DNA of 64,000 nt from an uncultured Alphaproteobacteria bacterium (GTDB lineage: Bacteria; Pseudomonadota; Alphaproteobacteria; CAAGCB01; CAG-977). Of the stretch, positions 45,079 to 46,868 are shown piece by piece. Numbering within the stretch: position 1 is the first letter of the stretch; every line of letters begins with the position of its first letter. The stretch spans positions 1 through 64,000 of the forward strand of contig CALXOZ010000005.1 in the NCBI GenBank assembly GCA_944390195.1. The letters are read 5' to 3'. The notes under the pieces were generated by a model. That model did no database searches and was not told where the DNA came from. It saw nothing but the letters and a program-made list of their open reading frames with translations. The translations under genes were made by a program, and so were the position numbers.

Positions 45079-45107
45079 CTTGAAACCGAAAAAAAGTGCG
45101 CCTATAT
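45079..45107 (+). promoter_or_regulatory. RpoH (sigma-32) type heat-shock promoter
   Basis: CTTGAAA at 45079-45085 and CCTATAT at 45101-45107. The spacing from CTTG to CCTAT is 18 bases. This fits the alphaproteobacterial RpoH consensus CTTG-N17/18-CYTAT. Transcription would start near 45113-45116 and give a leader of about 90 bases before hsp20. Confidence 0.8.
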
Positions 45108-45112
45108 CCTTT

Positions 45113-45201
45113 GTGTCAGGATAAGCCTTGACGGATATTCTGACGACGGGTGTCTTTAAGAACCCGCCCTATATTTGCTCATAAACTAAAGGAGAAATAC
45201 T
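45113..45201 (+). promoter_or_regulatory. ROSE-like RNA thermometer in the hsp20 leader
   Basis: The leader contains a hairpin CGGGT (45147-45151) / ACCCG (45162-45166), extended by TCT/AGA inside. Next comes TTGCT at 45175-45179, which can pair with the Shine-Dalgarno AGGAG at 45190-45194. A UUGCU opposite AGGAG with a central G-G is the diagnostic 3' element of ROSE thermometers. At low temperature this would hide the ribosome site. The pairing is visible; temperature response is inference from the known family. Confidence 0.62.
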
Positions 45202-45663
45202 ATGGCTTTATTAACAACAAACAATCCGTTCATGCTCGGTTTCGATTCATTGGAACGTATGCTGGATCGTGCGGCGAAAAATTCGGAAAGTTACCCTCCC
45301 TATAACATAGAACAGATAGATCCCACCCATTTGCAAATTACGATTGCCGTCGCCGGTTTCGGTGAAGAGGATTTGACGATAGAAGTCGAAGACAAACAAT
45401 TGGTTGTTCGCGGTCAGCATGTAGAAGATGAAAACGCATCAGAACGTCAATATTTGTATCGGGGAATTGCTTCTCGTCAATTTCAACGTTCGTTCATCTT
45501 GGCGGAAGGCATTGAGGTTTTGGATGCACATTTGGATAATGGTTTGTTACATATTGATCTGGAAAAGAACGAACCTGAAACAAAAGTCCGTCAAATTAAA
45601 ATTTCCAAAAAGGATACGGCAAAGAAAATCGATAAAACAACATCCGAAAAGCAAAACAAATAA
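45202..45663 (+). CDS. Small heat shock protein Hsp20 (IbpA-like)
   Basis: 153 residues. A short N-terminal arm (NPFMLGFDSLERMLDRA) is followed by the alpha-crystallin domain (about 35-125) with VAGFGEEDLTIEVEDKQLVV and NGLLHIDLEKNEPE. The C-terminal tail carries the I-x-I motif (IKI). Hsp20 holds unfolding proteins for refolding by DnaK/ClpB. It has an RpoH-type promoter and a thermometer-like leader, and the DUF1150 gene follows, as in other Alphaproteobacteria. Confidence 0.95.
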   Translation: MALLTTNNPFMLGFDSLERMLDRAAKNSESYPPYNIEQIDPTHLQITIAVAGFGEEDLTIEVEDKQLVVRGQHVEDENASERQYLYRGIASRQFQRSFILAEGIEVLDAHLDNGLLHIDLEKNEPETKVRQIKISKKDTAKKIDKTTSEKQNK

Positions 45664-45698: not shown

Positions 45699-45914
45699 GT
45701 GCTCATAAAAACGGATAAAAAGGAATTTACAATTGATGACTTGGCTGGTTTGGGCGTGAATTCCATTGCTTACATCAGGAAAAAAGTCGTTGATAACCGT
45801 AAGTTGTGGTTTGTCCATGCGGCTGAAGGAACACAATTGGCTTGTACGGATGATGAAAAAAAGGCTATATCTTTGGTTATTGATAACGAATTGATTCCAG
45901 TGAGCGTACATTGA
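45699..45914 (+). CDS. DUF1150 family protein
   Basis: 71 residues, GTG start after GGAGGG. The DUF1150 pattern is plain: LAGLGVNSIAYIRKK, FVHAAEGTQLACTDD and ELIPVSVH at the end. The family is small, restricted mainly to Alphaproteobacteria and usually encoded right after an hsp20 gene. The function is unknown, but the position suggests heat-shock induction with hsp20. The stop overlaps the following TTG start. Confidence 0.88.
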   Translation: MLIKTDKKEFTIDDLAGLGVNSIAYIRKKVVDNRKLWFVHAAEGTQLACTDDEKKAISLVIDNELIPVSVH

Positions 45915-46622: not shown

Positions 46623-46868
46623 ATGTCTGAAATGAAATTGGCGGAAATTGCAATTGTGGTCGTTAATCGTGAAAAGTCCGCAAGTGAAGTGAATGATGTA
46701 TTGACACAGTACGGTAATTATATCATAGCCCGTATGGGAGTTCCTCATCGTAGTCGGGAGATGTTTATCATTTCTGTTGTGATGGAAGCTCCGGAAGAAG
46801 AAATTGAGCATTTGACGGATCAATTGCATAAATTGGAAAATATTCGTGTGAAATCGATTATGATCTGA
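46623..46868 (+). CDS. TM1266-like small ACT/NikR-C-fold regulator
   Basis: 81 residues. The pattern AIVVVNREKSASEVNDVLTQYG ... IIARMGVPHRSREMFIISVV ... IEHLTDQLHKLENIRVKSIM matches the TM1266 family, an ACT-like fold related to the C-terminal domain of NikR. It is annotated as a putative iron-only hydrogenase system regulator because it clusters with hydE/hydF/hydG in many anaerobes. No hydrogenase gene is in this window. It has its own promoter and terminator. Confidence 0.8.
   Translation: MSEMKLAEIAIVVVNREKSASEVNDVLTQYGNYIIARMGVPHRSREMFIISVVMEAPEEEIEHLTDQLHKLENIRVKSIMI

Follow-up and report, generated by a model that had tools for sequence, protein, structure and literature searches.

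Putative RpoH Promoter and Divergent ROSE-Like Leader Upstream of hsp20 in an Uncultured Gut Alphaproteobacterium

In this work, we analyzed the region preceding a small heat-shock gene (hsp20) within a 64-kb stretch of alphaproteobacterial DNA, referred to here as the window. Our preferred reading, to which we assign a probability of roughly 0.83, is that hsp20 is under two-step heat control, with a likely RpoH promoter acting on transcription and a ROSE-like RNA thermometer acting on translation. An RpoH-type RNA polymerase would transcribe the gene from 45079-45107 and heat would raise this transcription. The resulting leader of ~88 bases would carry two stable 5′ hairpins followed by a 3′ hairpin that is weak and rich in A/U. 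There, pairing of UAUUU-[G]-CUC with GAGAAAUA would mask most of the Shine-Dalgarno (SD) sequence and a GCC/GGC clamp would lie over the AUG. A conserved bulged G would keep the 3′ helix weak enough for opening, and heat would separately open this hairpin (hairpin III) and allow ribosome binding. Dual transcriptional and translational heat control had been proposed by an earlier, sequence-only reading of this DNA, and it is still the best reading of the promoter, the RpoH gene, the fold and the ROSE core, with heat opening as a presumed step.

Results

The source genome comprises 2.12 Mb in 38 contigs and belongs to an alphaproteobacterial family represented here by 12 genomes; the named close relatives are mostly metagenome-assembled genomes from rumen or other gut. 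The features of the locus are as follows.

45079..45107, + strand: putative RpoH (sigma-32 type) promoter, CTTGAA-N16-CCTATAT (RpoH1 consensus match, conservation, regulon pattern)
45113..45147, + strand: predicted hairpin I, GUCAGGAUA-GCC-loop-GG-AUAUUCUGAC (minimum free energy fold, MFE; compensatory changes; GCC(N3-7)GGR type enriched in ROSE)
45148..45165, + strand: predicted hairpin II, GGGU...ACCC, G+C rich (MFE fold; compensatory changes)
45166..45206, + strand: predicted hairpin III, proposed thermosensor (fold; pairing in the alignment; bulged-G core)
45175..45179, + strand: UUGCU ROSE signature on the anti-SD side, predicted bulged G at 45177 (invariant in 8/8 leaders; U(U/C)GCU match)
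45190..45194, + strand: Shine-Dalgarno AGGAG (sequence; in the predicted fold GAG 45192-45194 is paired and AG 45190-45191 lies in the loop)
45202..45663, + strand: hsp20, small heat-shock protein of 153 aa (PF00011, E=7e-20)
45699..45914, + strand: DUF1150 gene with a GTG start (PF06620, E=3.7e-12)

The ORF with the PF00011 match opens at 45202, which makes the leader a small heat-shock 5′ UTR, the position expected of ROSE-like elements. The DUF1150 gene follows hsp20 after a gap of 35 bases and is probably co-transcribed with it as part of the same operon. Slightly 3′ of the hsp20 and DTW-domain genes, a TM1266-like small protein (putative iron-only hydrogenase system regulator) is encoded at 46623-46868.

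The promoter candidate, CTTGAAACCGAAAAAAAGTGCGCCTATAT, occupies bases 45079-45107 upstream of hsp20, with CTTG at 45079-45082, 18 intervening bases and CCTATAT at 45101-45107. Barnett et al., in the form in which PMC4843759 quotes them, give the RpoH1 promoter consensus as CTTGAA-N15-16-CCTATAT, and the present sequence is identical to that quoted consensus with a spacing of N16. CTTG and TATAT recur at equal distance, with small changes, upstream of all eight hsp20 orthologues of the family, and a gene for RpoH scores over the curated cut-off in 12/12 family genomes. The exact pattern has 13 matches in the genome, five of which, besides that of hsp20, lie just 5′ of groES, dnaK, clpB, lon and rpoD, genes recognized by reading translations and not by family scan. 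These five are loci L127, L132, L135, L136 and L138 of the source genome (G000), preceding dnaK, clpB, lon, rpoD and groES, and the genes behind the pattern provide a first outline of a putative RpoH regulon in this uncultured lineage.

Within the 64-kb window, the promoter pattern was found once against 0.70 expected by chance, and the leader motif TTTGCTY-N3-16-GGAG once against 1.05 expected. Such single-window counts carry no weight alone, as each motif is expected about once per 64 kb; position and conservation are what lift both above chance. For the promoter, this rests on consensus identity, conservation in 8/8 orthologues, the matches before the five further genes and the presence of the RpoH gene. 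An RpoH-type promoter of hsp20, which would make the gene RpoH-dependent and set its transcription start, is therefore the best reading of 45079-45107, and the sequence-only description of CTTG-N18-CCTATAT as a match to the alphaproteobacterial RpoH promoter holds as stated.

Three hairpins were predicted in the leader of ~88 bases by both the consensus fold and the MFE. The 5′ end of hairpin I would lie near the transcription start, as placed by the promoter. The GC hairpin noted in the sequence-only reading is hairpin II, at about 45148-45165, where relatives carry GGAG/CUCC and GGGA/UCCC in place of GGGU/ACCC. In the predicted hairpin III, U45172-U45176 pair with A45195-A45199 and C45178-C45180 with G45192-G45194, which sets UAUUU-[G]-CUC (45172-45180) opposite GAGAAAUA (45192-45199) with a single bulged G at 45177. 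Most of the SD would thereby be masked, and a clamp between GCC 45166-45168 and GGC 45204-45206 would cover the AUG and include its G. It had been suggested that UUGCU pairs with AGGAG; both motifs are where that reading placed them and pairing to the SD is predicted, but the predicted register is one with a bulged G45177 and not a G-G mismatch.

An alignment of eight leaders, from the source genome and seven relatives with 79-91% protein identity, allowed the fold to be assessed by comparison. All eight members keep the three-hairpin fold, a number within the two to four hairpins of ROSE-like elements. Across the consensus pairs, 92.3% of cells are paired; sliding the partners by 1-3 columns lowers this to 41-55%. 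Two-sided changes occur in six pairs, and none of 500 shuffles reached the covariation score of the alignment. Additionally, the leader is more stable than its dinucleotide shuffles (z -2.2, 6/200). The UUUGCU/GGAG leader is retained in all eight family genomes that have hsp20, and TTTGCTY-N3-16-GGAGARAT occurs a single time in the 2.12-Mb genome, exactly at the hsp20 leader. The bulged-G core is likewise present in all of them.

It is hairpins I and II that carry the covariation. Within the family, hairpin III is near-invariant and shows almost no covariation of its own and no two-sided changes. This is a point in favor of an unlikely alternative, namely a real RpoH promoter followed by a low-GC leader whose weak hairpin is static and has no thermometer function, so that heat would act on transcription only. 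That alternative is opposed by the covariation of hairpins I and II and by the form that the invariance takes. The T-TTTGCT and GGAG-A-ATA blocks, and with them the bulged G, are invariant, while the loop between them varies in sequence and in length, from 5 to 13 bases. Although invariance is not itself covariation, the conservation of both strands on either side of a changing loop points to pairing between them, and 98.4% of hairpin III helix cells are paired in the alignment. Hairpin III is predicted in most relatives; in G008 its form is shifted, and for G005 a different fold is predicted from 37 C upward.

ROSE-like elements precede small heat-shock genes, contain two to four hairpins and are defined by a U(U/C)GCU in the 3′ hairpin whose imperfect pairing with the SD leaves a G bulged (PMC3669281, PMC9450479, PMC11342760, PMC4166951). 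In the present leader, UUGCU lies at 45175-45179, is predicted to pair on the SD side and is invariant in 8/8 leaders, and G45177 is unpaired in the predicted fold. Using mechanical ORFs with an SD-like site as controls, and with some latitude in the choice of start codon for every group, we found the bulged-G core over the SD in 8/8 leaders of the family (two of them tabulated as L110 and L111), 37/38 Rfam-ROSE hits and 23/37 orthologues of 50-62% identity, compared with 13/250 control ORFs (Fisher p = 4.7e-10, 2e-34 and 1.3e-15, respectively). This recurrence before hsp20 across the class, as against ~5% of control ORFs, further disfavors a static hairpin. An independent feature, the 5′ hairpin GCC(N3-7)GGR, was present in 6/8 leaders of the family, 30/38 Rfam-ROSE hits, 14/37 orthologues and 8/285 controls. 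The bulged-G geometry is real in the ROSE reference family, since the pairing itself is backed by covariation in 33 canonical ROSE cores.

A covariance search with ROSE models, proposed in the sequence-only reading as a check, did not recover the leader. With E allowed up to 10, the Rfam ROSE model (RF00435) reported nothing in the 5 kb or the 201 bases surrounding the leader, and it had no match in the source genome or genus; its gathering cut-off is 45 bits, a score that the leader does not reach. The model is very strict: among 289 alphaproteobacterial genomes, 69 had a match at E up to 1, mostly sub-threshold, and one passed the cut-off. Yet hsp20 lies immediately 3′ of the match at 38 of the 40 loci examined (L070-L109). 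We also built a 29-position covariance model (R2) from 33 canonical ROSE 3′ hairpins. R2 recovers Moritella ROSE loci at 27.4 bits, but the hsp20 leader was not among its matches in the window, and of the eight family loci only two gave a core match, both weak: L007 at 12.1 bits and L006 at 9.1 bits. A model of the family itself (R1), run across the class, clearly found only its own genus, with three weak outside matches that lack an hsp20. Because the Rfam ROSE and R2 models fail to recover the leader, we call it divergent: by the published definition it is very probably a ROSE-like element, too diverged for profile membership.

Folding at 25 and 42 C, a further check from the same reading, predicted the SD-masking hairpin but did not distinguish its opening from that of shuffles. 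At 25 C, the in silico cost of opening the SD rose from 4.3 to 9.8 kcal/mol upon deletion of the bulged G, in agreement with the delta-G mutants of ROSE-like Pseudomonas elements, which are repressed and locked off (PMC3669281). The opening energy of the native leader at 25 C was equaled or exceeded by 88/200 shuffled leaders with the same SD, and 4/14 control ORFs of the window were at least as closed as the hsp20 leader, as a static hairpin would predict. The modelled SD was still about 0.73 paired at 42 C, with the fold largely closed. Thermodynamic folding over 25-50 C was consequently rejected as thermometer evidence, as it separates the leader neither from shuffles nor from controls.

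The leaders of other genes with the same promoter type also bear on transcription-only control. No thermometer signature was seen before clpB, dnaK and groES (the comparison across relatives covering clpB only), which again fits a static hairpin. The promoter type of clpB is conserved in relatives but its leader, in contrast to that of hsp20, is without a conserved fold. In G000, TTTTTTGC-TAGAG-GCGAAAATG in the clpB leader (L132/L140) might fold into a hairpin covering the start of clpB; a second thermometer at this position was rejected, as the hairpin is not kept in relatives.

Discussion

Comparison with characterized elements places the leader closest to the ROSE group by its core while setting it apart in detail. 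Like ROSE (RF00435, the element in the leaders of Bradyrhizobium hspA and further small heat-shock genes of alphaproteobacteria), it lies upstream of hsp20, contains several hairpins including a 5′ GCC(N)GGR hairpin, and is predicted to have a 3′ hairpin with UUGCUC/SD pairing, one bulged G and a partly covered start codon. Unlike typical ROSE, in which the lower stem is CAUGUU/GAUAUG and the apical loop about 4-6 bases, its lower stem is A/U only (UAUUU/AAAUA), the family's apical loop is variable at 5-13 bases, and a GC clamp is formed by the AUGGC start. The short ROSE-like elements of Pseudomonas ibpA share U(U/C)GCU over the SD, a stable hairpin I and a sigma-32 promoter, but have two hairpins in a leader of about 62 bases with the AUG unpaired (PMC3669281), as opposed to three hairpins, ~88 bases and an AUG predicted to be paired here. 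FourU thermometers, such as that of Salmonella agsA, likewise place a U-rich strand over the SD region; however, the present leader has no four-U run paired to AGGA, and instead UUGCU with its bulged G would pair to GAGAAA.

Instead of melting directly with heat, the leader might have been kept for another form of post-transcriptional control, for example autorepression by the small heat-shock protein binding its own 5′ UTR as for IbpA of E. coli, mRNA stability or targeting by a small RNA. PMC10474464 describes gamma-proteobacterial IbpA as repressing its own translation via the ibpA 5′ UTR, stabilization of mRNA by 5′ hairpins is possible (PMC3669281), and conservation extends to hairpins I and II. 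Nevertheless, we consider this explanation highly improbable: the anti-SD core with its bulged G is exactly the defining part of ROSE-like thermometers, our analysis gave no pointer to any specific binder, and thermal and protein control can in any case coexist.

The sequence-only reading had presented ROSE as described mostly for rhizobia. This lineage claim is weak, because >40 leaders from alpha- and gamma-proteobacteria were already predicted to carry ROSE-like elements (PMC3669281, PMC4166951). A literature search of partial coverage returned no paper joining RNA thermometers with rumen Alphaproteobacteria, and the two-step reading would add an uncultured gut lineage to those with ROSE-like heat control. 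It also implies that, even inside Alphaproteobacteria, clear relatives escape the Rfam ROSE model. The eight leaders offer a natural series, from bacteria living at constant warm host temperature, in which to test how the opening temperature depends on loop length and the bulged G.

More tentatively, and at somewhat less than even odds, the leader may belong to a second ROSE-like branch, unreported by Rfam, that precedes a second hsp20 type across Alphaproteobacteria and is marked by UCGCUC or UUUGCUC, a bulged G and a longer loop; the lineage studied here would then have, as an adaptation to warm-gut hosts, an extreme form with an A/U stem. Leaders of this second hsp20 type (L009-L030, L038-L055; 50-62% identity) often (23/37) carry UCGCUC, which would pair with GAGGA over the SD and leave a G bulged. 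In L050, L051 and L054, from other gut alphaproteobacteria, the ROSE core is absent and hsp20 directly follows an ORF ending like DnaA domain IV (GRDHTTIIHAV). In genomes with the second hsp20 type, the RF00435 matches listed precede a different hsp20 copy.
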